Below are positions 1 through 12,822 of a stretch of 64,000 nucleotides of DNA, piece by piece. The DNA is taken from contig JAQGNY010000039.1 of NCBI GenBank assembly GCA_028293825.1, forward strand, positions 1-64,000, given 5' to 3'. Within the stretch, counting starts at the first letter, position 1. The number at the start of each line of letters is the position of its first letter. The stretch is from Verrucomicrobiaceae bacterium (GTDB lineage Bacteria > Pseudomonadota > Gammaproteobacteria > Pseudomonadales > CAMLJR01). Both the position numbers and the translations under genes were made by a program. The notes beneath the pieces are model-generated. The model saw nothing but the letters and a program-made list of their open reading frames with translations, was not told the DNA's origin and did not search any database.

Positions 1-1
1 G

Positions 2-736
2 ATCGTCACCGGTCCGAACATGGGCGGTAAATCGACGTACATGCGGCAGACAGCGCTGATCGTGTTGCTCGCGCACATCGGCAGCTACGTGCCGGCGAAA
101 AGCGCGCGCATCGGTATTGTCGATCAAATTTTTACGCGCATCGGCTCGTCGGACGATCTCGCCGGCGGACGTTCGACGTTTATGGTCGAGATGACCGAAA
201 CCGCAAACATTTTGCACAATGCCACTGCGCGCAGCTTGGTGTTGATGGATGAAGTCGGTCGCGGCACGAGCACTTTCGACGGGTTGTCGCTGGCATGGGC
301 GGCGGCTGTGCATTTGGTCAATCGGCTGCGCGCATTCACGTTATTCGCCACGCATTATTTCGAATTGACGCAATTGCCGGAACAATTTCCGCAGGCGGTC
401 AACGTGCATCTCGACGCGACCGAGTTTAACGATCACATTGTTTTTCTACACACGATTCAGGAAGGACCGGCCAATCGCAGCTATGGTTTGCAGGTGGCGA
501 AGCTCGCTGGTATTCCGATGCCGGTTATCGCCGCGGCCAAACGTAAATTAAATGAGCTTGAAACCGCCAGTGCGCATGGGCCGATTGCAACCGTTGGATC
601 GCCACTGCAACCGGATTTATTTGCCGCGCCGTCAACTCATGCGGCTGTCGATCGATTGCAGGAAATCGATCCCGACGAATTAAATCCGCGCCAAGCATTA
701 GAACTATTGTATGAACTTAAAGGTTTGGTGGAGTGA
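2..736 (+). CDS. mutS: DNA mismatch repair protein MutS, C-terminal part
   Basis: This is the C-terminal 244 residues of MutS; the gene begins before the window. The fragment opens with the P-loop GPNMGGKST that binds ATP. A Walker B/ABC-signature stretch follows ([16 protein letters not shown]), then the conserved [11 protein letters not shown] segment. The tail holds the short helix ([11 protein letters not shown]) that in MutS helps form tetramers. MutS recognises mismatched bases and uses ATP to recruit MutL. The open frame continues to the left window edge, so this is a cut by the window and not a broken gene. fdxA follows after 50 bp, an arrangement common in pseudomonads and relatives. 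Confidence 0.97.
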
Positions 737-786
737 TGTCGAAGTGATAAACTCCGCGCCGTTCACGTTCCGAGAGGTTAATTGAA

Positions 787-1110
787 ATGACATTTGTAGT
801 TGGGGAAAACTGCATTAAATGCAAACACACGGATTGCGTCGAAGTGTGCCCGGTGGATTGTTTTTATGAAGGCCCCAATTTTCTCGTCATTCACCCTGAC
901 GAATGTATCGATTGCGCGCTGTGCGAACCGGAATGCCCGGTCGATGCGATTTTTTCCGAAGACGAATTACCGGAAGATCAGCAGCAATTTCTCGCGCTGA
1001 ATGCTGAATTGGCCGAAGTGTGGCAGAACATCACCGAGAAAAAAGAATCGCCGCCCGATGCTGAAGACTGGGACGGCGTACCCAACAAAATTAAACATCT
1101 CGAGCGCTAA
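787..1110 (+). CDS. fdxA: 7Fe-8S ferredoxin FdxA
   Basis: A 107-residue ferredoxin. Cysteines near the N-terminus ([14 protein letters not shown]) and a second set ([12 protein letters not shown]) match the family that carries one 3Fe-4S and one 4Fe-4S cluster. The acidic C-terminal tail (about residues 60-107) is typical of Azotobacter/Pseudomonas FdxA. It is a cytoplasmic low-potential electron carrier; its partner cannot be told from the sequence. A GAGG ribosome site lies a few bases before the ATG. It follows mutS in the same direction. Confidence 0.95.
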
Positions 1111-1128
1111 TCGCTCAGCAAGCACCGA

Positions 1129-1611
1129 TCAGGGTTGAATCCTGATCGGTGTTCCCTCGTCTACTGCGTCCCAAATTTCGTCCATTTGCCAATCGGCCAC
1201 CGCGATACATCCGTTGGTCCAATTAAACATTTGCGCAACTTCTTCGGGCCATGGGCGGTCGTTGGGCTGGCCGTGAATCATGATCGACCCACCTGTGGGC
1301 ACGCCTAAGCGCTCGGCGCGCTCGCGATCGAAACTGTTTGGATAAGAAATATGAATGGATTTATAGAACGCGCTTTTTTCGTTTTTGCGATCGAGAATGT
1401 ATTCCCCTTCAGGCGTACGTTCGTCGCCCGCCGTCATTTTTGGGCCGCGCGGGCGCGGACCCAATGCGATGCGATATTCGCGAATCGGTTTTCCATCGCT
1501 AATTAATAGCAGTCTCGACTCGGATTTTTTTACCAGAACCAAATCGACTTTGGGAATTGCGTGAACTGCGGAACTCAAAAAAACTGATACAAACAGAACA
1601 AACATTTTCAT
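1129..1611 (-). CDS. L,D-transpeptidase (YkuD domain), exported
   Basis: 160 residues. An N-terminal signal peptide (about residues 1-18, ending SAVHA) is followed directly by a YkuD domain. The catalytic signature is visible: His113 in IMIHGQPN and Cys135 in NWTNGCIA. Such enzymes make 3-3 peptidoglycan cross-links or attach proteins to peptidoglycan in the periplasm; small stand-alone YkuD proteins of this kind are often poorly characterised. It converges on fdxA with an 18-bp gap. There is no strong ribosome site before the ATG. The exact substrate is not predictable. Confidence 0.88.
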   Translation of the reverse strand: MKMFVLFVSVFLSSAVHAIPKVDLVLVKKSESRLLLISDGKPIREYRIALGPRPRGPKMTAGDERTPEGEYILDRKNEKSAFYKSIHISYPNSFDRERAERLGVPTGGSIMIHGQPNDRPWPEEVAQMFNWTNGCIAVADWQMDEIWDAVDEGTPIRIQP

Positions 1612-1920
1612 AGGGCAAATAAATACGCGGCAATTTAAGTTTTTTTGCGCGATCGATCGATAGATTTAACGTCGCGGACTTGTAATTAATGTTAGTCGCC
1701 CCCATTACGCGTGCCAGCCATGATGCTGTATTTGTGGCCGTGCTCACAGCGTCAGGGAGCCGCTGATTTCAGCTTAGATCAAAAACTTTGCGTGCTCTCT
1801 GGAATTACGCACGCAAGTAATGGTAATGTAAGAATTAATCCTCGTCTTGGGACGAGGGCAGTTTTTTTAGCTCACCCCTGTCTACAACGTTAAAGTGCAA
1901 TCCCCAAAAGGAGTCAAACA
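1612..1920. other. intergenic region upstream of the lipoprotein gene
   Basis: 309 bp between the divergent L,D-transpeptidase and lipoprotein genes. The left part is AT-rich and should hold the promoter of the minus-strand transpeptidase. The right part carries a terminator-like hairpin (1840-1868) on the plus strand and an AAAAGGAG ribosome site just before 1921. I could not assign a confident sigma-70 promoter for the plus-strand gene. Confidence 0.5.
1840..1868 (+). terminator. terminator-like hairpin in the lipoprotein gene leader
   Basis: A 7-bp GC-rich stem (CCTCGTC / GACGAGG) with a TTGG loop is followed by a run of T residues, the form of a Rho-independent terminator on the plus strand. 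No plus-strand gene lies between 1110 and it. It sits only about 52 bp before the lipoprotein start, too close for a complete promoter to fit comfortably downstream. It may end a small RNA or act as a leader attenuator. Confidence 0.55.
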
Positions 1921-2202
1921 ATGAAAAACACTCTGTTGAAAGCGGTACCGTTTGCTGTATTTATGGCTGTAGCTGCTGGTTGCGCTAGCAACTCTTCGCT
2001 CGACGAAGTTAAAGCAAGCGCCGCTACTGCTCAGAAAACTGCTGACGATGCCAAAGCTGCTGCTTCCGCTGCTCAGAAATCTGCTGACGCTGCTCAAGCA
2101 ACTGCAAACCAAGCTCTGTCTACCGCTAACGAAGCTAAAACTGCTGCTGACGAAGCGAACACCAAGATTGACCGTGCATTCAAAAAATCGATGCGCAAAT
2201 AA
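1921..2202 (+). CDS. Lpp/OprI-type major outer-membrane lipoprotein
   Basis: 93 residues. A lipoprotein signal ends in the lipobox VAAGC with Cys21 as the lipidated residue. The mature part is a continuous heptad-type helix extremely rich in Ala, with Lys, Asp and Glu (about residues 28-85), as in the trimeric coiled coil of Lpp and OprI. The protein ends in RK; in Lpp the terminal lysine is the residue joined to peptidoglycan by L,D-transpeptidases. A strong AAAAGGAG ribosome site and a biased codon set (many GCT alanine codons, unlike its neighbours) suggest very high expression. L,D-transpeptidase genes lie on both sides. A strong terminator follows. Confidence 0.9.
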   Translation: MKNTLLKAVPFAVFMAVAAGCASNSSLDEVKASAATAQKTADDAKAAASAAQKSADAAQATANQALSTANEAKTAADEANTKIDRAFKKSMRK

Positions 2203-2221
2203 GCTTTCATAGCGAATAAAA

Positions 2222-2254
2222 AAACCCGACCTCCGCAAGGACGTCGGGTTTTTC
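2222..2254 (+). terminator. Rho-independent terminator of the lipoprotein gene
   Basis: Stem AAACCCGAC / GTCGGGTTT closes a loop and is followed by a T run, 20 bp after the lipoprotein stop codon. The A run on its left side means it may also end minus-strand transcripts coming from the 2286 gene. Confidence 0.85.
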
Positions 2255-2285
2255 TTTGTCTAAAAAAACTGTTTAAGAAAAACGA

Positions 2286-3230
2286 TTAGCGCGTGCTGAC
2301 CGGTTCGGGCATCGATGCTACCGACGCTGGAATACCGCTGGATTCCAAATCGGTAACATCCACTTGATGCCAATCGACCGCATAATTTGGGAAATCTTTC
2401 GTCGCTGCTGTTATTGCTTCAACCATCGGCGTCTTGCCACGCGCCTCTTCACCATGCGGCCCCTCTAAAGGCGGGTGCACCTCAAGATACAAAGCACCCT
2501 GATGCCAGCCGGCCTTGTAGCGCTGATTGATGATGCGTACCGGCGTACCAATTGGGACAGTTCTGTACAACCGCTCTATATCGTCCGCGTATAACCGCAT
2601 GCAGCCATGCGTCACCTGCATGCCAATGCCGTACTGGTTGTTAGTGCCATGAATCAGATAGCTCGGAAGCGACAGACGCAGCGCGTATTTACCCAAGGGA
2701 TTATCTGGACCTCCCGGAATCTTCTCCGGCAGTGGATCACCGTCGGCCGCATGTTCGGCTCGAATTGATTTCGGCGGCGTCCAGCTCGGATCGACAACCT
2801 TGCCAGAAACTCTAGTGCTCACAAGGGGTGTATTCCAATCGCCGCGGCCCACGCTGACAGGATAAGTTTCAACTGTGGCAGGCTCGCCCGGTTTAACTTT
2901 CGGAAAGTAATACATGCGCATTTCGGCGACGTTGATAACAATGCCCTCGCGCGGGCCAGCGGGCAGCAAATAAAACTTCGGCATCACGATCGTGGTGTTA
3001 TCGCGCGGCATCCAGGAATCCACTGCAGGGTTCGCAGCACGAATTTCGTCGTAACCGAGATCGTGCGCGCGGGCGATATCGATCAAGGTATCTTCGGTGC
3101 CGGCAGTTACAGTGGTAATTGCGCCGATCATGTCTTCGCCAGGGGCAGGCATTGGAAACACATCGGCTTGCGCCGTGCGGGTAAGTAAAAAAAGAAGAGT
3201 AAACAGACTTAGGTTTGTGACGAGCTTCAC
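2286..3230 (-). CDS. L,D-transpeptidase with LysM-like domain (ErfK/YbiS family)
   Basis: I chose the GTG at 3230, giving 314 residues: it has a GGAAAG ribosome site, opens directly into a signal peptide (cut after TRTAQA), and avoids overlap with the preceding gene. An in-frame ATG at 3278 is possible but has no ribosome site. After a LysM-like segment (about residues 35-85) comes the YkuD domain with His194 (YLIHGT) and Cys210 (THGCMRL). ErfK/YbiS-type enzymes link Lpp to peptidoglycan or form 3-3 cross-links in the periplasm. It is the last gene of the minus-strand operon that starts at 7595 and faces the Lpp-like gene. Confidence 0.9.
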   Translation of the reverse strand: MKLVTNLSLFTLLFLLTRTAQADVFPMPAPGEDMIGAITTVTAGTEDTLIDIARAHDLGYDEIRAANPAVDSWMPRDNTTIVMPKFYLLPAGPREGIVINVAEMRMYYFPKVKPGEPATVETYPVSVGRGDWNTPLVSTRVSGKVVDPSWTPPKSIRAEHAADGDPLPEKIPGGPDNPLGKYALRLSLPSYLIHGTNNQYGIGMQVTHGCMRLYADDIERLYRTVPIGTPVRIINQRYKAGWHQGALYLEVHPPLEGPHGEEARGKTPMVEAITAATKDFPNYAVDWHQVDVTDLESSGIPASVASMPEPVSTR

Positions 3231-3255
3231 GATACTTTCCGATAATGTAAAAAAG

Positions 3256-3675
3256 TTAATGATAAACGATATCGCCATGCATCGGCGCGAGCAGCGCTAT
3301 CAAACGATTTTGCGCACTCACCGATATTTGTTGCGAATTCATTGCCGCGATTAAATCCTCCACCAATGCATTGAAGTGCATGTCATTAATATTTTTACCG
3401 GCGTGCGATTCCGCCATAGTGTCGCCGGTATAGACGCAGGGACCGCCGCTCAACACGCATATTTGTTCGACCAATTTGTCGCGCAAACGCTCGACATTGC
3501 TGTCGCGAAACTGATCGGCAATACGCTGATCGTCCGCAATGTTGTAAAGCAGTTTGGTCACCAGCGTTTTGATGCCCTGCTCTTGTCCCAACTCTCGATA
3601 AAGATCATCGGGCTTCGATGCCTGCAGCGCGCAGCCGCTTAGGAGCGCCATCAATAGAATTGTCGTTAAACGCAT
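3256..3675 (-). CDS. group 1 truncated haemoglobin, predicted lipoprotein
   Basis: 139 residues. The first 15 form a lipoprotein signal (LLMALLSGC, Cys15). The rest resembles group 1 truncated haemoglobins: the GGP...Y.G block, then SHAGKNINDMHF, where His91 fits the proximal haem ligand. Truncated haemoglobins bind O2 or NO and can detoxify or sense them; they are usually cytoplasmic, so an exported, lipid-anchored form is unusual. It sits 9 bp after the DUF3034 gene and 25 bp before the L,D-transpeptidase start, in an apparent operon. Haem binding is inferred from the motif only. Confidence 0.85.
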   Translation of the reverse strand: MRLTTILLMALLSGCALQASKPDDLYRELGQEQGIKTLVTKLLYNIADDQRIADQFRDSNVERLRDKLVEQICVLSGGPCVYTGDTMAESHAGKNINDMHFNALVEDLIAAMNSQQISVSAQNRLIALLAPMHGDIVYH

Positions 3676-3684
3676 ACCGTCCCC

Positions 3685-4563
3685 TCAGAAGCTGCCTTGA
3701 ATCGAGACATACCAACCCTGTTGATTGCGCAAGGTGGCGATGTCGCCGAGATCGACCCATGCTGCGACCACCGACCATTGCTTATCGGGAAACCACGCGA
3801 CAAACACGTCCTTCCAGTCCTGCGCACGCGCAAAGGACAGATTGTCCGGCATCTGTCGATACTCGGTGCCGATCAGCCAATGGCGATTGATAAAAAGTCC
3901 GGCGGAGCCTTCAAACACCGCTTCGCGACTGTTGCGTTTATCGCCGCCGAAGCCGACCAAGCTTTCCTGATTCGATTTAGTCCAGCGCACTACGCCGTTG
4001 AGCAGCACGTTGCGATCGGCAAAACCGGCCAAAAACAATTTTGTCGCCGCCAAGTACATATCGACGCCCGAGTCGTCTTTTGCGCCCGCCGCACTCGGAA
4101 TAAAAAAATCCAAATTCTTTTTGTACTGCGCGCCAGCGCTGATTTGCGGTGTGGCTGTATAAACCACATCGCCATACAACCGCACTTTTGCACCGAACAC
4201 ATTTTGCCGAATGGTGTTGTCGGGCACGCCCAGCGCGCCAGCCAATGTATCGAGTCGCAACTCCTGCCGCGCTGCCGACAGTTCGACGCGATTGCGCCAC
4301 GACCAAGCTGCGCCGATCGAATCAAGCCGATAGTCCTTCGTGTCCACGCGACTGACGAAAGCGGTGCCACCGGCCTCATCGCGCGTGTCGTAACCGGACA
4401 ACACCGCCATCGGCACGATACCGCCGCCCGCACTGCCCTCGATTTGCGTTGCCGCGCCTGTCGCCAGCAAACGACCGCCGCTATCGGCATGCACAATGTC
4501 GATAGTTGCTGTCAGCAGGAACGCGACGCAATTGGCTGCGTACTTACCGAATACTGATCGCAT
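3685..4563 (-). CDS. DUF3034 family outer-membrane protein
   Basis: 292 residues with a signal peptide (about 1-26, ending DIVHA). The mature part alternates polar and hydrophobic residues as in beta strands, contains Gly-rich turns, and ends in an aromatic residue (SIQGSF), all signs of an outer-membrane beta barrel. I recognise the family as DUF3034, which has no assigned function. Its ATG overlaps the end of the GGDEF-EAL gene by 20 bp, so the two are probably translationally coupled. The role is unknown; a pore or barrel partner for the periplasmic cupredoxin or haemoglobin is only a guess. Confidence 0.8.
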   Translation of the reverse strand: MRSVFGKYAANCVAFLLTATIDIVHADSGGRLLATGAATQIEGSAGGGIVPMAVLSGYDTRDEAGGTAFVSRVDTKDYRLDSIGAAWSWRNRVELSAARQELRLDTLAGALGVPDNTIRQNVFGAKVRLYGDVVYTATPQISAGAQYKKNLDFFIPSAAGAKDDSGVDMYLAATKLFLAGFADRNVLLNGVVRWTKSNQESLVGFGGDKRNSREAVFEGSAGLFINRHWLIGTEYRQMPDNLSFARAQDWKDVFVAWFPDKQWSVVAAWVDLGDIATLRNQQGWYVSIQGSF

Positions 4564-6925
4564 TCACCGGCCCTCGCTTTAAATTGGCAAAATGCTGTTT
4601 CGCCCAGACGGCAAAATCGGCCGCCGGAATCGGCTTACTCAGCAGATAACCCTGCACCATGTCGCAACCGAAACCCCGCAAAATCTCACGCGACTGCTCG
4701 TTCTCGACACCCTCAGCAACCACCTGCAACCCCATGTTGTGACCGAGCTCAATAGTCGAGCGCACGATGATGCGGTCCTCGGCGCTATCGGCCAGGTTCA
4801 ACACAAAGGATTTGTCGATCTTGATTTCATCGACCGGCATTTTGCGCAGCTGCGACAGCGACGAATAACCGGTACCGAAATCATCGACCGATAACCGGAT
4901 ACCCAGCTCCTGCAACTGACGCAGCGTCGCCAAGCTTTGCTGCGCCTCCTGCATCAGCGAGCTTTCGGTAAGCTCTAAACAAAGTTGTTGCGCCAACACG
5001 CCGTGCTGTAACAGCAGGCGCTCGACGTGATTGATAAAACCGCGCTCCAGCAAATCCAACGCGGAGATATTCACCGACAGCCGCACGCTAAAGCCTACCT
5101 GCTGCCACTCGGACAGTTGCAGAATCGCGCGCTCCAGCACCCACATTGTGATCAGCGAAATATTGCCGGAGCTTTCGGCCAGCGGAATAAATTCATCAGG
5201 ACTGAGCGGGCCTAGTTGCGGATGACGCCAGCGCAACAGCACTTCCGCGCCGAGGTAGGCATCGTCGCTAAGGCTGAGCTTGGGCTGAAATGCCAAATGC
5301 AAGCCTTCGCTCGTCAATGCTTTCTTCAAATCCTGCAGCAGCGACAGCCGGCGCAAATTGCGCTCGTCCCAGCCCGACTGATAGCAAGCCACAGACTGTG
5401 CGGAGTGTTTGGTACTAAACATGGCGATAGCCGCGCGCCGCATCAAAATTTCCGCATCATCGCCATCCTGCGGAAACACCGCGATGCCAAAACTGGCATC
5501 AATGCTCATTTGCAGATCTGGCAGCGGTATCGGCTCAGCCAGCACGGCAAATAAACGTTTGGCGACGATTTCAGCCTGAGCCCCATCGGCGTGTTCGAGC
5601 ACCACTAAAAACTCATCGCCGTCGAGGCGGACGCAGGTATCGAGATGTTTGACCGATTGCTGCAAGCGCTGCGCGATCGCCTGCAATACTTGATCGCCGA
5701 CTGCATGGCCGAACGAGTCGTTGACCGCTTTAAAGCGATTCACATCCAGCACTAACACCGCCGCGCCGTGCTCGCCCGCGCGCGCGGTCTCAATCGCTTT
5801 TGCCAACATCTGCAGCGCGCGCGATCGATTCGCCAGCCCGGTCAAATGATCGTGCTGCGACTGATAGAGAATCTGTGTTTCCCGCTCCCCAATCGCCGTC
5901 TGCATTTTCACAAAGGCGCGCGCCAACTCACCGAGCTCGTCCTCGGATTCGATCAGAACCGGCGTCGAATAGTCGCCGGCGGCGACGCTCTGCGATGCAC
6001 TGGCTAGGCTGCGCACGGAGCGCGTCAAATTGCGTCCGACTAAAACCGCCATCGCTACGGCTAACGCGAAACCGGCCAGAGCAATCCACAACAACTGCTG
6101 ACTGAGCAAGGTGTACGGCATCATTACGTTTGCCAGCGGAGTTTGCAGAACCGCTGCGAGCGAGAACCCCTGGCTGCTGAGCGGCGCCACCAGCGTGAGC
6201 ATCGTCTCGCCACCCAACTGCAATTGGGTAACTGTGCCGGCTTTAGCAGATGTTGGCTCCAGCGACAATTTGAGTTCATCGTGCAGATTCGACTCGAGTG
6301 TACTCGCCAAGTAGCGGCTCTGCCCTGGCGCTTGAGCGACAAACGAAATCTCTAATTTAGTCAAACCCTTAAGCGTTTTTGCTAAGTTTTTATCGAGCTG
6401 AAAACCCATCGCCGCCCAACCAATTCGTGCCGGTGCGCGAATGGTGGCGACTACGAACTGATAGGGCACGCCGTCTAGCACCACATTCGCCGACGCTGCG
6501 CCATTGCGGTCGGCCTGCTGTAGTAGATCGGGAAAGGGAAATGAGGAATCGCGTTCGGCAACGGTGTCGGCCAGCATCCGTCCAGTGCTGTCGATCACCA
6601 TCGCGCGATCTGCGCCGACGCGGCTTGAATGATTTTTCAACGCGGACAACACCGTCGCGGTCTCGCCAGTCGCGACAGCTTCTTTGAAGCCGAAATCGTC
6701 GACCAGCACCGACACCGAACTTGTCAGCTGATGCGCACGTTCTTCCAATAACTGCGAAAACACATCGGCGCCAACTTCCAATTCGTGGCGCGCGCTATCC
6801 AGCAGCGTGCCGCGAATCGCTGCGCGCGCCGAAAAATAAGTCGAAGCCTGCAACAGCACGACCAGAGCGATCGCGAATAACAGCAGCCGCGCGAGATAAC
6901 TGCGCGCAAATAGTTTACGGAGCAT
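4544..6925 (-). CDS. membrane HAMP-GGDEF-EAL c-di-GMP enzyme
   Basis: 793 residues from the ATG at 6925, where the first membrane helix (about 11-31) follows at once; a longer frame to 6997 would add an unlikely basic leader overlapping the upstream gene. A periplasmic sensor region (about 32-275) precedes a second membrane helix (about 278-298), a HAMP linker, a GGDEF domain and an EAL domain. The GGDEF site reads DGDEF (435-439), so cyclase activity is doubtful. The EAL site reads EVL (561-563), but DDFGTGYSS, the KIDKSF lysine, AEGVE and the VQGY glutamine are present, so phosphodiesterase activity is plausible. It overlaps both neighbours (11 and 20 bp). Confidence 0.93.
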   Translation of the reverse strand: MLRKLFARSYLARLLLFAIALVVLLQASTYFSARAAIRGTLLDSARHELEVGADVFSQLLEERAHQLTSSVSVLVDDFGFKEAVATGETATVLSALKNHSSRVGADRAMVIDSTGRMLADTVAERDSSFPFPDLLQQADRNGAASANVVLDGVPYQFVVATIRAPARIGWAAMGFQLDKNLAKTLKGLTKLEISFVAQAPGQSRYLASTLESNLHDELKLSLEPTSAKAGTVTQLQLGGETMLTLVAPLSSQGFSLAAVLQTPLANVMMPYTLLSQQLLWIALAGFALAVAMAVLVGRNLTRSVRSLASASQSVAAGDYSTPVLIESEDELGELARAFVKMQTAIGERETQILYQSQHDHLTGLANRSRALQMLAKAIETARAGEHGAAVLVLDVNRFKAVNDSFGHAVGDQVLQAIAQRLQQSVKHLDTCVRLDGDEFLVVLEHADGAQAEIVAKRLFAVLAEPIPLPDLQMSIDASFGIAVFPQDGDDAEILMRRAAIAMFSTKHSAQSVACYQSGWDERNLRRLSLLQDLKKALTSEGLHLAFQPKLSLSDDAYLGAEVLLRWRHPQLGPLSPDEFIPLAESSGNISLITMWVLERAILQLSEWQQVGFSVRLSVNISALDLLERGFINHVERLLLQHGVLAQQLCLELTESSLMQEAQQSLATLRQLQELGIRLSVDDFGTGYSSLSQLRKMPVDEIKIDKSFVLNLADSAEDRIIVRSTIELGHNMGLQVVAEGVENEQSREILRGFGCDMVQGYLLSKPIPAADFAVWAKQHFANLKRGPVNAISIR

Positions 6926-7595
6926 TCTTGCTGGGCCGCCTGAATAGTTGCTGTAACTCGCTCTCAGGCTTTGTCGCGGTCGGCGTCGCTGGCGCACCGA
7001 CCTGGAAGTTAAGCGTCACCTCACCGCTGGCAGCGACCTTAACGCTTTGCTCCAATCCAGCTGCAGTCGGCATTACACCCGGATACCACAAGCGCGCGCT
7101 GTAAGTACCGGCTGGAACGTTGGCGATTAACGCACTGCCTTGGCTATCGGATTTAGCAAACCACGGCGTGTCGACCACGTAGATGTAGCCGATCATTTTG
7201 TCGTGAATATTGCAGCCCAACGCAACCTCGCCCGCCGTATCGAACACGATCGGATTGGCCAGTTGACCGTGATAAAGGCGCAGCTCAAACCGCTTCGCCG
7301 GCGAGAATGAATAAACCTGATGGCGGATATCGTCTTTGTTCGGAAATCTAACAGATGTGTTCTTGCGCACGACCAACACGTGCGGATCGAATTGCTTGTC
7401 GCGCTGATCCATGACCGCATTAGCGACGTCGGGGAAATTCGTGGGCGTTGGCGCATACAAAGCAACAGCCGCATCGGGAAGCGGCGCACCGCTGGCATCG
7501 CTAACATGCGCGCGCACTGTTGTCGCGCTGGCGTGAGAGCCGCACAAGAACAGTAACAACGTGAGGAAATATCGAGAATGAATCGGTGATCGCAT
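6915..7595 (-). CDS. periplasmic cupredoxin, methylamine-utilisation-like
   Basis: 226 residues with a signal peptide (about 1-24, ending SHASA). A plastocyanin-like fold is indicated by a candidate type 1 copper set: His92 in DIRHQVYSF, then Cys128, His131 and Met134 in GCNIHDKM. Flanking regions resemble carboxypeptidase-regulatory-like beta domains (about 28-60 and 145-200). Annotated relatives are often called methylamine utilisation proteins, but no methylamine dehydrogenase genes are present here, so that name should not be taken as function. It is the first gene of the operon and could deliver or sense copper or electrons for the membrane c-di-GMP enzyme encoded next. Confidence 0.87.
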   Translation of the reverse strand: MRSPIHSRYFLTLLLFLCGSHASATTVRAHVSDASGAPLPDAAVALYAPTPTNFPDVANAVMDQRDKQFDPHVLVVRKNTSVRFPNKDDIRHQVYSFSPAKRFELRLYHGQLANPIVFDTAGEVALGCNIHDKMIGYIYVVDTPWFAKSDSQGSALIANVPAGTYSARLWYPGVMPTAAGLEQSVKVAASGEVTLNFQVGAPATPTATKPESELQQLFRRPSKNAP

Positions 7596-7707
7596 GCAAA
7601 GCCCGCCTGTAAGAATTCGGCCAAAACCCGACTTCCGCGGCGGAAGTATGGTTGGCGAATGGCGGTTCGGCCAGTCGAAGCCCTGTAGAAATAGTGAATA
7701 AGACGGG

Positions 7708-9117
7708 CTACAGAGCGGCGAGTTTTAATTCGAGATAGCGCTCTTCCAGTTCGATATGTTGCGTTTGCAAGTTAAGTAGCTCTTGTTGCGCTGTGGCGAG
7801 CTGCTGTTTTAACTGCTCGACCGGCGCCGCCGCGTTTTCACCCTCGCCTTCAGCCAAACGCGCGCGCAACTCGCTGCATTCGGCCTCGAGCATTTCCAAT
7901 GCGTTCAACATCTCCGCGCTTTGGCGCGTGAAATCTTCGATGATGTTTGTCATTTGCTCGACCTCGCCATCGACCAGCGACGAAGGATCTTGCTTGATTT
8001 GCAGCACTTTCATTTTCAGCGTGTGATTTTCTTCGAGCGAGCGGTCCAGTTCGCTTTCTAATTGTTTGGTGCAAAGATCCGACTCTTTCAAAAAGCGTTC
8101 GTGACGTTCGAGCTGCTTATGCAACTCGCTGATCACGCGATCCTTGGCCTCGACCGACGTCGCGCTCTCCAATTCATCGCGCAGATGTTGAATCATTTTG
8201 TGCTGATCGACCGCCATGTTACGCAGACGCTGCAGCTCTTCCTGATTCGCAATAACCATGCGCCCGACGCTGGGCTGCTCGGCGCCGGGTTTCGCGGTAC
8301 TTTCTGAATCGACGCGCGACGGATCTTTATCTTTCGCCAGCGCAGCACCGAACTCGACATAAACCTGATTGTATTTTTCGAGCAGTCCGTTGAACTCGGC
8401 ACCGCCCTCAAGCTTGCTGCCGTGCTCCGCCAACGCCTGCCGATATTCTTCCGCCTGACGATTCGCTTTGTGCCATTTTTCATCGGCGTCAAAAAACAGC
8501 TTTTTAAAGCGCTCCAAATTTTCGATATGCCGTTTCTGATTGTCGATAACCGCCTGCAGCGCCGCTGCCTCGCCGTTTTGCGGTACTTCGCCGTCAAGGT
8601 CGAGTGCCTCCAATGAATCGGCGTCCGCGATCACACTTTCTTCGGCGCCCGCGGCGGGTTGCTCGTAAAACTGGATGATCTGGGTGAATTTATTTTCCAG
8701 CACACCCCAGTCGACGTCACGACCGTTGTCGCTGGCCAGCCACGCCTCTTTCTCGGCGATCAGGAACGCATGGCGCAGCGACACCGCGCGGCGCGCCAGC
8801 GGCGTATCAGCCGCCATATCGAGCACGATGTCGCGCTCGGCATTCAATTCGAGATGATGGTTGCGGGTGATGTTGATCTGCGCGTCGATGACTTCGGCAT
8901 AGTCCGGAATCGGCGGCTGCGCTTTTACCTCTTCGCGCGTGACTTTGAGCTCGGCGCGGACATTCTTTAACAGCTGGCGCAGCTCAAGAACTTTCGCTTC
9001 CAGCGCCTGTGCGGTTTTGCGCAAGCCCTGCGCGCGCAAGGTCACCAAACCGAGCAGGAATAGAAACGCAACGCCGACTTCCAGGCCGACCATCAGAATT
9101 ATTGATTTATCAGGCAT
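7708..9117 (-). CDS. membrane-anchored coiled-coil protein of unknown function
   Basis: 469 residues. One hydrophobic helix near the N-terminus (about 6-28) is followed by a long charged, heptad-rich region dominated by Glu, Lys, Gln and Leu, with coiled coils at about 30-60, 195-270 and 285-465. No catalytic motif is visible. The predicted topology is a short periplasmic N-terminus or uncleaved anchor with a large cytoplasmic coiled coil, as in scaffold or envelope-organising proteins. It stands alone between queF and the cupredoxin operon, all on the minus strand. I do not recognise the family. Confidence 0.75.
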   Translation of the reverse strand: MPDKSIILMVGLEVGVAFLFLLGLVTLRAQGLRKTAQALEAKVLELRQLLKNVRAELKVTREEVKAQPPIPDYAEVIDAQINITRNHHLELNAERDIVLDMAADTPLARRAVSLRHAFLIAEKEAWLASDNGRDVDWGVLENKFTQIIQFYEQPAAGAEESVIADADSLEALDLDGEVPQNGEAAALQAVIDNQKRHIENLERFKKLFFDADEKWHKANRQAEEYRQALAEHGSKLEGGAEFNGLLEKYNQVYVEFGAALAKDKDPSRVDSESTAKPGAEQPSVGRMVIANQEELQRLRNMAVDQHKMIQHLRDELESATSVEAKDRVISELHKQLERHERFLKESDLCTKQLESELDRSLEENHTLKMKVLQIKQDPSSLVDGEVEQMTNIIEDFTRQSAEMLNALEMLEAECSELRARLAEGEGENAAAPVEQLKQQLATAQQELLNLQTQHIELEERYLELKLAAL

Positions 9118-9273
9118 ACGATGTCGTTGCGCGCCAATGGAGGTAAGAAGTTATCGAGCAATAGTAGTCAAGCAATTGACGGCGCACCAATTCCAGCGCG
9201 CAACTTTTCGCTGGCGGGATTATTTCAGGGTAAAAACTCGCTTCCTTGCAAAAAGTGCTTTGCGGCCGCGCCG

Positions 9274-10086
9274 TTATTGCCTGGCAAAACGCGCGTTGGC
9301 TGGAACCTGCAATTCAGTGCTGCGATATGGATTGATATCCAGCCCACCGCGACGCAGATAACGCGCATAAACCGTCAGTTGCTGCGGCGCGCAGCGCTGC
9401 ATGATGTCGACGAACATGCGCTCAACGCAGTGCTCGTGAAAATCCTGATGCTCGCGAAACGAAACGATGTAAGCCAGCAAGCCAGCCGGATCTATTTCGG
9501 CGCCGCGGTATTCGATCTGCACCGTGCCCCAGTCGGGCTGACCTGTAACCGGACAGCGCGAACGCAGCAATCGACTAAACCAACTTTGCGACACGTGTTT
9601 TTGCGAGTTTATCGTTAACAATTCTGGCGCGGGCGTGTAGGTGTCGATGGCGACCGCAATAGCATCGAGACAGTGGCCGCGCGGTGCGACCGTTTGCAGA
9701 CGCGACCATTGCTGCGGCAAATGCAGAAGTATTTCAACCGGCGCGCCAACGCAGACAGCCAAATCGCGCTGCATCGTGAGAGCAACATCACTCACCTCGG
9801 CAAAGCGATGCTGGTTCAGCGAGTTGAGATAGAGCTTGAAAGACTTCGACTCGACGATGTTGGGCGACATCGCCGGAAAACGAAATTCGCCAATCGCAAC
9901 TTGAGGTTTGCCGCTACTGTCCAGCCACGATAATTCGTAAGCATTCCAAATATCGCAGCCGCCAAACGGCAATGCGCTACCGATTGCCAACACATCTCGG
10001 CCAGCGGCGCGAGCGATCGGGCTCAACAAACCAGGATCGTAAGGCGCATCGTAATCGACGCTTTTACCGAGCAGAATGTCGCCCAT
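9274..10086 (-). CDS. queF: NADPH-dependent 7-cyano-7-deazaguanine reductase QueF
   Basis: 270 residues. QueF reduces preQ0 to preQ1 for queuosine in tRNA. The substrate/NADPH motif VESKSFKLYLNS (about 78-89) and the catalytic Cys178 with Asp185 in RCPVTGQPDWGT match the long, two-domain (YqcD/E. coli) form. The ATG at 10086 is chosen because GAGGT lies 6 bases upstream and the protein then starts MGDILLGK; the frame is open further upstream but that part overlaps the permease gene and looks non-coding. It follows the ABC permease by 8 bp. Confidence 0.95.
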   Translation of the reverse strand: MGDILLGKSVDYDAPYDPGLLSPIARAAGRDVLAIGSALPFGGCDIWNAYELSWLDSSGKPQVAIGEFRFPAMSPNIVESKSFKLYLNSLNQHRFAEVSDVALTMQRDLAVCVGAPVEILLHLPQQWSRLQTVAPRGHCLDAIAVAIDTYTPAPELLTINSQKHVSQSWFSRLLRSRCPVTGQPDWGTVQIEYRGAEIDPAGLLAYIVSFREHQDFHEHCVERMFVDIMQRCAPQQLTVYARYLRRGGLDINPYRSTELQVPANARFARQ

Positions 10087-10094
10087 GTTCGACC

Positions 10095-10868
10095 TCAGCT
10101 GCGCAGACGCTTGCCGGAACTGAGCAAGTACATCGAATACGCGTATGCGACAACGATAAACACCAGCACGATTCCAAAGGCGAACCAAATATTCACATCG
10201 GAAACACCGAGAAAACCGTAACGAAACGCGTTGACGATATAAAGAATTGGATTGAAGCGCGACAGATTCGCCCAAAACGGCGGCAGCAATTCGATCGAGT
10301 AAAACACGCCGCCGAGATAAGTCAGCGGAGTCAAAACGAAGGTCGGCACAATCGAAATGTCGTCGAAGTTGTTCGCATACACCGCGTTGATAAATCCAGC
10401 CAGCGAGAACAGCAAGGATGTCAGCAACAAAATGGTGAGCGTGATCAACGGATGTTGAATATGCAGATGGCTAAAGAACAGCGATAGCACTGTGACGATC
10501 GCGCCGACGCAAATACCGCGCAGAATGCCGCCGACCACAAAGCCCAACAAAATGGTGTGGTTTGAGGTCGGCGAAACTAACAGCTCCTCGATATGGCGCT
10601 GAAACTTCGCGCCAAAAAACGACGACACCACATTCGAATAAGCATTGGTCAGCACGGCCATCATAATCAGGCCGGGTACCATAAACTGCATGTAACTAAA
10701 GCCGCCCATGCTGCCGATACGCGAGCCGATCAATTGCCCGAAAATGACGAAATACAGCGCCATCGAAATCGCAGGCGGCAGCAACGTTTGCGACCAGATG
10801 CGGAGAAAGCGCCGCGCCTCTTTGCGCACGATGGTCGAAAACGCCACCAACTCAGTGGATAAACTCAT
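10095..10868 (-). CDS. ABC-2 type transporter permease (YadH-like)
   Basis: 257 residues with about six membrane segments and the ABC-2 permease pattern, including the cytoplasmic loop FQRHIEELLVSPTSN and the conserved LTPLTYLGGVFYS region. It should pair with the ATPase encoded at 11878-12822 as a YadGH-type exporter in the inner membrane. The substrate is unknown. An oxidoreductase gene separates it from its ATPase. Its stop codon lies within the ribosome site region of queF, suggesting a shared transcript. Confidence 0.92.
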   Translation of the reverse strand: MSLSTELVAFSTIVRKEARRFLRIWSQTLLPPAISMALYFVIFGQLIGSRIGSMGGFSYMQFMVPGLIMMAVLTNAYSNVVSSFFGAKFQRHIEELLVSPTSNHTILLGFVVGGILRGICVGAIVTVLSLFFSHLHIQHPLITLTILLLTSLLFSLAGFINAVYANNFDDISIVPTFVLTPLTYLGGVFYSIELLPPFWANLSRFNPILYIVNAFRYGFLGVSDVNIWFAFGIVLVFIVVAYAYSMYLLSSGKRLRS

Positions 10869-10938
10869 GCCTGTCGATTTCCAGCGGCGCTAACGCACCT
10901 GTCGAAAGTTTAATTAAAAGAAATTGGATGCAGCGAAC

Positions 10939-11853
10939 CTAAACCGTCGCGATCAATTTGCCCTGCACCTTACCGGCTTGGCTCTCGATGAGCGCCTGCC
11001 CAATATCGGCAAACGCATAGGTCCGTGAAATTTTGAGTCGCACGCTGCCGTCGGCAATAAGACGATCAACCTCCTCCAAACCGCTGCGCTCAGTTTGACC
11101 AATAACCATCTCCGCGCGCACACCGAAAGCGGTGGCCTGGGCCTGATCGGGCGGCGCCACCAGACTCAGAAGAGCGCCGCCGCGACGCAACAACTGCCAT
11201 GAGCGTGCCTGCGCCTCGGGGCCATAGGCGTCGAGCACGACATCAAAATCGCCGATCTGATCTTCATAGGCCGTGGTGCGGTCAACCACGTGCGTCGCGC
11301 CCAAACTTTTCACAAATTCGATATTTGCCGGCGACGCCAACGCGGTAACTTCCGCGCCGCGCAAATGCGCCAACTGCACCGCCATACTTCCTACACCGCC
11401 CGCGGCCGAGTGGATCAGGATGCGCGTACCGGCACCCACTTTTCCCGCGTTCAGCGTTGTCACGGCCGTAAAGGCTGCAGCAGGCACGGCGGCGGCTTCG
11501 ACAAAACTTAAGCGCGACGGCTTCAGCGCGATCTGCGTGATTTTTACCACGGCGTATTCGGCGAAGGCGCCAATCATGCCGGTCATGCCATGCACTTCAT
11601 CGCCTACGGCGAAGTCAGTGACGCCCTCGCCCAGCGCGGTAATGGTGCCGGCGAACTCGCCGCCAATCGTGGTCGGAAAATGAAATGGGATGAACTCTTT
11701 CGCATAACCTTCGCGAACCTTCCAATCGACCGGGTTGATTCCCACTGCGGCGACTCTCACCAACACTTCGTCCGCCGCCGGCGCAGGGATTGGCACTTCG
11801 CCGATAACGAGAACTTCAGGTCCACCAAAACCAGTAATTTGCACTGCACGCAT
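10939..11853 (-). CDS. zinc-independent MDR-family NADP-dependent oxidoreductase
   Basis: 304 residues of the medium-chain dehydrogenase/quinone-oxidoreductase superfamily. The GroES-like part includes VAAVGINPVDWKVREG and GGEFAGTI; the nucleotide-binding Rossmann part contains HSAAGGVGSMAVQLA (about 148-162). The usual zinc-binding cysteines of alcohol dehydrogenases are not seen, so a quinone or enone reductase activity with NADPH is likely. It lies between the ATPase and permease genes of an ABC exporter in the same direction (24- and 70-bp gaps). Any link to that exporter is unproven. Confidence 0.88.
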   Translation of the reverse strand: MRAVQITGFGGPEVLVIGEVPIPAPAADEVLVRVAAVGINPVDWKVREGYAKEFIPFHFPTTIGGEFAGTITALGEGVTDFAVGDEVHGMTGMIGAFAEYAVVKITQIALKPSRLSFVEAAAVPAAAFTAVTTLNAGKVGAGTRILIHSAAGGVGSMAVQLAHLRGAEVTALASPANIEFVKSLGATHVVDRTTAYEDQIGDFDVVLDAYGPEAQARSWQLLRRGGALLSLVAPPDQAQATAFGVRAEMVIGQTERSGLEEVDRLIADGSVRLKISRTYAFADIGQALIESQAGKVQGKLIATV

Positions 11854-11877
11854 GATCGATTCCTCTCTATAAGATGG

Positions 11878-12822
11878 TTAAGTAGTCGCGACACTGTTGT
11901 GGTCAGGGCTATTGTGAGCAAGCAGGGAAATAAATAGTTCCTCGAGACGATTCGCCTTATTGCGCATGCTCGTAACAGTGACACCGCGCGCCGATAACTC
12001 AGCCAGCAAATCGTTCAGGCTTTCGCCTTTTTCGATCTCTACTTCAATACTGTGAGAATCAAGCACTTTGCCATCGAAGCGCGACAAATCGATCGACGGA
12101 TTGACTGACTCGCGCGTGTCGAGAATGAAATGCTCTTTGCGCAGCCGCGTCAGTAATTCTTTGATACTGGTATTTTCGATGACGCGACCGCTGTCGATGA
12201 TCGCAATATTGCGACACAGACTTTCCGCTTCTTCGAGGTAATGCGTGGTGAGAATGATCGTCGTGCCCTGTACGTTGATCTCGCGCAGAAACTCCCACAT
12301 CGAGCGCCGTAATTCGATATCCACGCCAGCCGTCGGCTCATCGAGAATCAACAGGCGCGGCTCGTGCACCAGCGCGCGCGCAATCATCAAGCGCCGTTTC
12401 ATACCGCCGGACAAAACGCGTGCGGGTTCGTCGCGCTTATCCCACAAACCTAATTTGCGCAGGTATTTTTCGGCACGCTGCTCGGCAAGCGCGCGCGGCA
12501 ATCCGTAGTAACCACCTTGGTCGGCAACGATGTTGAAAACTTTTTCGAAGTTGTGAAAATTAAATTCTTGCGGCACTAGGCCAAGTTCGCGTTTTGCAGC
12601 GGGGAAATCGACATCAATGTCGTGACCGAATACTGAAACGACACCACTTGTTTTAAGCACTAATGAGGCAATCACACCAATCGCAGTGGATTTGCCCGCG
12701 CCATTGGGACCGAGCAATGCAAAAAAATCGCCTTGCTGGACCTCCAGATCGATGCCTTTCAACGCCTGCAGGCCGTTGCCATAGATTTTGGTCAGACCGC
12801 GAATGGATAAAGCGATGCTCAT
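11878..12822 (-). CDS. ABC transporter ATP-binding protein (YadG-like)
   Basis: 314 residues. Walker A GPNGAGKST (about 38-46), signature LSGGMKRR, Walker B LLILDEPTAGVD and the switch His in LTTHYLEEAE are all intact. The C-terminal 80 residues form the extra domain found in YadG/CcmA-type ATPases. It should energise the permease at 10095-10868. It is the first gene of a four-gene minus-strand cluster ending with queF. Confidence 0.93.
   Translation of the reverse strand: MSIALSIRGLTKIYGNGLQALKGIDLEVQQGDFFALLGPNGAGKSTAIGVIASLVLKTSGVVSVFGHDIDVDFPAAKRELGLVPQEFNFHNFEKVFNIVADQGGYYGLPRALAEQRAEKYLRKLGLWDKRDEPARVLSGGMKRRLMIARALVHEPRLLILDEPTAGVDIELRRSMWEFLREINVQGTTIILTTHYLEEAESLCRNIAIIDSGRVIENTSIKELLTRLRKEHFILDTRESVNPSIDLSRFDGKVLDSHSIEVEIEKGESLNDLLAELSARGVTVTSMRNKANRLEELFISLLAHNSPDHNSVATT

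Follow-up and report, generated by a model that had tools for sequence, protein, structure and literature searches.

A cupredoxin-type protein paired with a dCache_3 sensor of exchangeable output: a putative modular signalling system of the bacterial envelope

Periplasmic partners that gate enzymes of cyclic diguanylate (c-di-GMP) turnover are few. The YfiBNR (TpbB) system of Pseudomonas aeruginosa combines an outer-membrane part, a soluble periplasmic regulator and an inner-membrane c-di-GMP enzyme with a periplasmic sensor and a HAMP domain, and in the available excerpts of the source the YfiR-YfiN core is reported joined to different outputs (PMC3375315). In the PruR-DcpA and PruR-DTB systems, a two-gene unit encodes a periplasmic protein that binds a cofactor together with the GGDEF-EAL protein that it biases to phosphodiesterase activity, histidine kinases being alternative outputs, according to the accessible part of the publication (PMC13259868). 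Here we describe a comparable gene set in a 64,000-nucleotide stretch of contig JAQGNY010000039.1 (the window). Five minus-strand open reading frames (ORFs) are located at 2286-7595, as placed by a preliminary description of this DNA, and encode an exported cupredoxin-type protein (CUP), a transmembrane dCache_3-HAMP-GGDEF-EAL sensor, a DUF3034 protein, a group 1 truncated haemoglobin (globin) and an L,D-transpeptidase. We consider it reasonably likely that the four genes at 3256-7595 represent one form of a modular system for signalling at the envelope, with a core formed by CUP and a sensor that reads it.

The likeness to the described systems does not extend to their components. In YfiBNR the regulator is YfiR and not a cupredoxin, c-di-GMP turnover falls to a diguanylate cyclase instead of an EAL protein, and the outer-membrane part is a lipoprotein, with neither a barrel nor a globin named in the excerpts of the source. 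Pfam detected no YfiR-type or OmpA-type family in the window proteins at E 0.01, and the DgcN/YfiN model NF007423 scored 156.6 bits on the HAMP-GGDEF part of the sensor, below its cut-off of 325. In PruR-DcpA, the accessible text describes a WX7E motif carried by the periplasmic domain of DcpA itself, and mentions neither a barrel or globin nor versions with a cyclase or Ser/Thr kinase (PMC13259868). PruR is a pterin-binding partner; CUP has no Pfam match to a molybdopterin-oxidoreductase family and adopts a predicted cupredoxin fold instead. Because neither YfiR nor PruR is recognised in the window proteins, CUP and its sensor look like a third family of such periplasmic-partner systems, with copper-protein chemistry and an outer-membrane set. 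A metal protein would thus join the short list of periplasmic partners gating c-di-GMP enzymes.

Two further groups of proteins invite comparison. PepSY-like flavinylated sets have been proposed, in the part of the source available, to support extracytosolic electron transfer (PMC8238504). Genes for flavin mononucleotide (FMN)-binding and PepSY_TM proteins are present in one DUF3034-globin variant and lacking in the window unit, while the main text of PMC8238504 contains no occurrence of DUF3034, globin or cupredoxin. The sCache_heme domains are Cache sensors with a metal cofactor that respond to nitric oxide (NO), as described in the accessible part of PMC12889525, and bind haem c via CXXCH; here the cofactor protein is separate, and the first 350 residues of every front-end protein examined are devoid of CXXCH, the motif for covalent haem. 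The preliminary description knew of no system of such composition, and in keeping with this no description of the gene set was found among the matches listed in open-licence full-text literature, to which the search was confined. No paper in these full texts combined a cupredoxin with an EAL domain and phosphodiesterase. Two papers mention DUF3034, one in the legend of a retron figure and the other in a table of Streptomyces genes, and do not concern this system in the portions available; the accessible text of an Fe-oxidiser genome paper discusses truncated haemoglobins without this unit.

Comparison across genomes indicates that the constant core of the system is the pair of CUP and a dCache_3-HAMP sensor. 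A CUP profile matched 67 of 194 genomes of the order at E 1e-10, 55 of which were kept at 163 bits or more with the rest below 100 bits, and a profile of the first 350 residues of the sensor (the front end) matched 59 genomes at 1e-20, 57 with matches of at least 139 bits. Cut-offs were placed by eye at score gaps (lowest kept 163 bits for CUP and 139 bits for the front end), excluding from the 194-genome table CUP matches below 100 bits (12 genomes), front-end matches below 112 bits (2 genomes) and second partial matches. CUP and the front end occur together in 54 genomes, spanning 20 GTDB families; one genome has CUP only, three have the sensor only and 136 have neither (Fisher p 4e-43, a value that ignores shared ancestry). 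The two genes are no more than 3 kb apart in 46 of the 54, and seven of the eight unlinked cases are from one genus group. Even in the single CUP-only genome, front-end fragments adjoin CUP (locus L147), and one of the three sensor-only genomes has a diverged CUP beside the sensor. DUF3034 is a weaker companion than the sensor, with CUP present in 35 of 40 DUF3034 genomes versus 20 of 154 others.

Some CUP loci have other neighbours. At six loci of one genus group (L082, L097, L137, L138, L141 and L143) CUP is found without a linked dCache_3 sensor and the front end is encoded elsewhere in the genome; upstream of CUP in L137 there is, as judged by eye, an apparent two-component system together with a periplasmic binding protein. 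A DUF4394 gene lies directly upstream of CUP-EAL on a Comamonas aquatica plasmid (L182, 4012-4962) and could specify a further envelope partner.

The outputs attached to this front end vary. The fetched loci, selected partly via DUF3034 and partly via CUP and in some genomes two in number, contain 116 CUP genes. Of these, 93 have a sensor front end within 2 kb, of which 69 continue into GGDEF-EAL, 14 into an adenylate/guanylate cyclase, 6 into a Ser/Thr kinase and 4 into other outputs. Three of the latter are histidine kinases (L158 and the hybrids L176 and L177), whereas the gene in L055 is broken into pieces. Pfam confirmed the cyclase in L131, L139, L074 and L155, the Ser/Thr kinase in L059, L160 and L168, and the histidine kinase in L158, L176 and L177. 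By an iterated profile covering some 340 residues, sensors with a cyclase, Ser/Thr-kinase or histidine-kinase output have a front end homologous to the window dCache_3 region. A CUP tree of 115 rows requires 7 changes for the three main outputs and 14 for the barrel types, and the starred branches alone force at least two changes for the cyclase label and at least two for the kinase label. Judged from these alignments and trees, one sensor front end drives swapped outputs in different lineages. The genes that come after DUF3034-globin in a Bdellovibrionales locus (L020) encode a histidine kinase with a different sensory region and a short cupredoxin.

For the GGDEF-EAL version, the EAL catalytic positions (E, N, E, D, D, K, E, Q), which we presume to act in metal binding or as base, are kept in 36-37 of 37 sequences, and an E[AV][LF].RW-type motif is found in 63 of 70 sensor relatives. 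The GGDEF motif is canonical in 27 of the 70, and that of the window protein departs from the GG(D/E)EF pattern of active diguanylate cyclases. Because the EAL catalytic positions are kept and the GGDEF motif is degenerate, the window sensor is probably a phosphodiesterase. A separate evolution of the EAL domain, considered in view of mirror-tree correlations of 0.08-0.18, was traced mainly to domain fragments, with values rising to 0.48-0.75 once three loci were dropped, and no claim is made.

The identity of CUP emerges from its predicted structure, Pfam giving no cupredoxin family and only carboxypeptidase-regulatory-like and weak Ig-like matches. In an AlphaFold model built from 6 sequences (mean predicted local distance difference test score, pLDDT, 79.1), residues 57-141 match cupredoxins of the PDB with Z up to 12.4 (root-mean-square deviation 1.6, 83 aligned residues) and Foldseek concurs, bearing out the cupredoxin call made earlier from the sequence. 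The flanks form a carboxypeptidase-regulatory-like domain (matches spanning residues 25-202), inside which the cupredoxin domain is inserted. Residues H92, C128, H131 and M134 are invariant in 50 of 50 aligned CUP sequences and presumably correspond to the type-1 copper ligand set of azurin and plastocyanin, from which we infer that CUP binds copper. Annotation pipelines give CUP homologues the name 'methylamine utilization protein'. In Pseudomonadota this family seems to be dedicated to one sensor subfamily, whose outputs fall into four classes; Caballeronia, Comamonas and Novosphingobium plasmids are among the named carriers.

In the window the pair is accompanied by DUF3034 and the globin, and the four genes recur together across families, beyond chance. 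In overlapping sets of genomes, DUF3034 was detected in 15 of the 274 examined for the class, 40 of the 194 for the order and 25 of the 299 for the phylum, one of the class matches (G207) being a contig-end fragment. Each of the 40 loci from the order has a same-strand globin gene immediately downstream of DUF3034; the contiguous order CUP-EAL-DUF3034-globin is found in 24, and three more have 4.3 to 4.7 kb inserted between EAL and DUF3034. Further loci have the globin downstream of DUF3034 in 6/13 (class), 15/15 (phylum) and 6/7 (named contigs) cases and the full four-gene order in 4/13, 5/15 and 4/7, respectively; in three GC-rich loci the globin was read within an over-long ORF. The arrangement is divergent in Sphingomonas (L021) and on a Novosphingobium plasmid, and a Caballeronia plasmid has the order DUF3034-globin-CUP-EAL, annotated as 'DUF3034 family protein', 'group 1 truncated hemoglobin', 'methylamine utilization protein' and 'EAL domain-containing protein'. 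CUP-sensor and DUF3034-globin are separated in G420, G645 (L110, L169), G657 (L119, L171) and G693 (L122, L174), and six DUF3034 loci (L022, L064-L068), several on short contigs, are without CUP, EAL or globin. On these comparative grounds CUP, sensor, DUF3034 and globin are a conserved four-gene unit, with the transpeptidase a chance neighbour. Of the five-gene operon in the preliminary description, four genes hold as a unit and the L,D-transpeptidase drops out; confinement of the gene order to this genome, which would have spoken against that operon, applies solely to the adjacency of the fifth gene, the four-gene order being found elsewhere. A mutS and a ferredoxin gene (window 20-1110) also lie near DUF3034-globin in another family (L074, L090), suggesting an old chromosomal position.

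The DUF3034 profile is covered in full by the window protein (362.8 bits, cut-off 25). Its model, built from 8 sequences with a mean pLDDT of only 69.3 and hence of modest confidence, has 12 strands from residue 64 and best matches the KdgM, NanC, FapF and COG4313 channels (Z 17-18). Of the 116 CUP genes, 58 have DUF3034 no more than 6 kb away, 18 a barrel-like family of ~430 residues and 13 one of ~300 residues (BAR430 and BAR295, names coined in this analysis); one gene has both DUF3034 and the ~430-residue family and 26 have none of the three. The globin is present in 58 of 59 loci with DUF3034 versus 0 of 31 with the other two families. Beside CUP-sensor, other barrel-like families can take the place of DUF3034, or no barrel is present; the role of envelope output proposed for it earlier is unsupported, and from its distribution an input or docking role fits better. 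Representatives beside CUP-sensor without DUF3034 are L127:2937-4289, L149:2464-3774, L152:7002-8240 and L151:6821-8164 for the ~430-residue family, and L142:5533-6420 and L139:6679-7620 for the ~300-residue family; Pfam gave sub-threshold porin matches in two of these four ~430-residue proteins and none in the two of ~300 residues. In four loci of one genus group (L071, L088, L105 and L106), FMN-binding and PepSY_TM genes come after DUF3034-globin, with a cupredoxin next in three. These variants point to extracytoplasmic electron transfer, possibly a flavin-based electron supply to the exported globin.

The globin scores 48.3 bits with Bac_globin (cut-off 21), and its best PDB matches are group 1. 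The proximal His91 is conserved in 68 of 68 sequences, Cys73 and Cys80 in 64 each, and a lipobox-like motif was recognised by regular expression in 41, leaving 27 without. HbN-type globins have polar distal residues (B10 Tyr, E7/E11 Gln), of which E11 Gln and B10 Tyr support NO dioxygenation. In the window globin L43, L64 and L68, as aligned to Tetrahymena group 1 globins, occupy what we take to be B10, E7 and E11, and these positions are apolar in 67, 63 and 67 of the 68 sequences, with no Tyr at any of the three and a single Gln at position 68. The window globin thus has none of the polar distal residues of an HbN-type NO dioxygenase. A pocket without the O2-holding hydrogen-bond donors of HbN suggests selectivity for NO or carbon monoxide (CO).

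In the mechanism we propose, a change in the state of CUP (reduced/oxidised or copper-loaded/empty) would cause it to bind or release the dCache_3 domain, and the HAMP domain would relay the dCache_3 state to the cytoplasmic output. Here, this would be the EAL phosphodiesterase with its degenerate GGDEF domain, lowering c-di-GMP, and elsewhere the shared front end would drive a nucleotide cyclase, Ser/Thr kinase or histidine kinase. On the input side of the window version, DUF3034 and the lipoprotein globin with its apolar haem pocket would feed CUP an input that is probably either a diatomic gas (NO or CO) or redox in nature. The CUP-sensor contact, the signal and the direction of the response are what we infer; the suggestion in the preliminary description that a cupredoxin feeds a periplasmic sensor fits the near-perfect CUP-sensor co-occurrence and the swapped outputs. 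A bolder version, which we regard as rather doubtful, has the periplasmic globin with its apolar pocket capturing NO (or CO) and passing a redox change to the type-1 copper of CUP; oxidised or reduced CUP would then dock on dCache_3, a domain that different lineages have connected to c-di-GMP, cyclic AMP/GMP, Ser/Thr or His-Asp outputs. If true, protein-to-protein electron transfer would serve as a signal across the envelope, with a copper protein as the ligand of a transmembrane receptor family. The proposed system would offer a first functional context for DUF3034 and for exported truncated globins, and brings the question of how bacteria sense redox, copper or NO status in the periplasm within reach of experiments on two purified proteins.

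A number of observations weigh against a CUP-reading sensor as the common core. The distance correlation of the CUP-sensor pair (0.64) does not single it out from CUP-DUF3034 (0.63) or CUP-globin (0.64). CUP and sensor are both present yet unlinked in G276 and in seven genomes of a single genus group, and for 23 of the 116 CUP genes no front end lies closer than 2 kb. With only the first 15 (CUP) or 10 (front end) candidates scored per genome, unlinked extra copies, among them sensors without CUP, could escape. Among the proteins scanned, Pfam places dCache_3 above its cut-off only in the window, L131, L059, L168 and L155; it is below cut-off or absent in L139, L074, L160, L158, L176 and L177, where homology was recognised via the iterated profile, and the L020 histidine kinase has a weak 4HB_MCP match instead. 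The CUP tree has 45 of 112 inner branches without resolution, and one of its kinase rows (L156) is fragmentary. Scans of the sequence upstream of 111 CUP genes with FNR/DNR, CRP and rough CueR-like patterns returned 1, 1 and 0 sites, the same as in one shuffle each (1, 1 and 0). Furthermore, the globin is absent at many CUP-sensor loci, and gas sensing therefore cannot be the general signal.

Other explanations can be set against signalling by CUP through its sensor. It appears unlikely that the locus serves copper or haem handling under c-di-GMP control, with the barrel and globin moving or storing metal or haem, CUP buffering copper and the sensor reading the copper load as a sign of stress, free of any redox or gas role. 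The copper ligands retained in CUP and the interchangeable barrels next to it would suit such a function, as would alignment of the DUF3034 model with the copper transporter PcoB (Z 12.7), except that PcoB is one among many unrelated barrels that match and is far below the best of them (Z 18). The rough pattern also gave no CueR-like site upstream, and the recurrent neighbours scanned are an ArsP-type permease, DoxX, cytochrome c, DsbA, FMN-binding and PepSY_TM proteins; a linked copper pump could still lie among the other neighbours, which are the majority. Distinctly unlikely, in our view, is a periplasmic electron-transfer or NO-detoxifying system in which CUP is the redox partner of the globin rather than a ligand of the sensor, the latter merely sharing the expression unit. 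This would accommodate the FMN-binding and PepSY_TM variants and a globin of group 1 truncated type, but the CUP-sensor pair is found in many loci without a globin, and CUP tracks the sensor in 54 of 55 genomes versus 35 of 55 for DUF3034, the constant neighbour of the globin (which was itself not searched genome-wide). In addition, the B10 Tyr and E11 Gln of HbN-type NO dioxygenation are missing.

A five-gene operon with cell-wall cross-linking as output, as first proposed, is highly improbable. It is suggested by the short or overlapping same-strand junctions and by a probable terminator 3' of the transpeptidase gene, and is contradicted by the genomic context of the transpeptidase elsewhere. 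No homologue (phmmer, E 1e-3) was detected in the other CUP or DUF3034 loci compared, and among 56 relatives homologues occupy 16 places besides that of the window. Within 1.5 kb of these, an Lpp homologue is found in 11/16 and a YafK-like gene in 5/16, with globin, DUF3034 or CUP in 0/16; the absence of homologues beside CUP or DUF3034 and the Lpp linkage rule out the transpeptidase as a fifth member of the unit, and with it the cross-linker as envelope output. The LdtE model gives it 216 bits against a cut-off of 480. Next to it in the window are the genes of an Lpp/OprI lipoprotein, at 1921-2202, and of a YafK-like protein, at 1129-1611, so that the transpeptidase reads as the edge of a lipoprotein-tethering cluster. 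At 1129-3278, a YafK/DpaA-like YkuD protein, an Lpp/OprI alanine-zipper lipoprotein ending in Lys and an LdtE/YbiS-like transpeptidase are encoded side by side and may act together in attaching and detaching a Braun-type lipoprotein, with Lpp/OprI as the substrate.

Table 1. Genes, domains and other features of the window locus.
Feature	Position	Strand	Basis
CUP, exported cupredoxin-type protein, 226 aa	6915..7595	-	ORF; model; PDB comparison; invariant ligand positions
CUP cupredoxin domain, residues 57-141	7173..7427	-	ranges from structure comparison of model
Transmembrane sensor, 793 aa: dCache_3, HAMP, GGDEF, EAL	4544..6925	-	Pfam; start ATG
Sensor dCache_3 periplasmic region, residues 44-250	6176..6796	-	Pfam and iterated profile
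Sensor GGDEF domain, motif DGDEF (non-canonical)	5399..5857	-	Pfam, motif check
Sensor EAL domain, catalytic residues retained	4631..5335	-	Pfam, alignment
DUF3034 (PF11231), predicted 12-strand outer-membrane barrel, C-terminal Phe	3685..4563	-	Pfam, model
Group 1 truncated haemoglobin, 139 aa, lipobox LSGC, proximal His91, Cys73, Cys80	3256..3675	-	Pfam, alignment
L,D-transpeptidase (LdtE/YbiS-like), neighbour outside conserved unit	2286..3278	-	NCBIfam, homologue context
Hairpin between A and T runs	2218..2255	.	fold z -6.8 minus strand, -5.2 plus strand

Pfam E-values are 1.3e-108 for DUF3034, 1.4e-12 for Bac_globin and 2.8e-21 for YkuD, and within the sensor 2.2e-75 for EAL, 4.4e-41 for GGDEF, 1.4e-13 for HAMP and 6.6e-10 for dCache_3; an alternative, longer GTG start of the sensor ORF is located at 6997. 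Export of the products was judged by eye from their N-termini and with a lipobox regular expression, without a signal-peptide program. CUP and EAL overlap by 11 bp, EAL and DUF3034 by 20 bp, and 9 bp separate DUF3034 from the globin. All five ORFs and the junctions of the preliminary description were recovered, its 25-bp gap between globin and transpeptidase depending on a GTG start at 3230, as the first ATG (3278) gives a 23-bp overlap. The hairpin at 2218-2255, unlisted in a perfect-stem scan, is a probable terminator shared by the minus-strand genes and the opposite-strand Lpp gene. A sigma-70 promoter scan of 1100-9500 returned 3 sites versus 4.8 expected, and an Rfam scan of 1-12000 gave nothing above gathering scores. 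Within 112 bp upstream of CUP, a perfect 8-bp inverted repeat (ACTTCCGC/GCGGAAGT) is present at 7631-7647 and folds as a hairpin (z -3.1), with 2 of 200 shuffles equally low.

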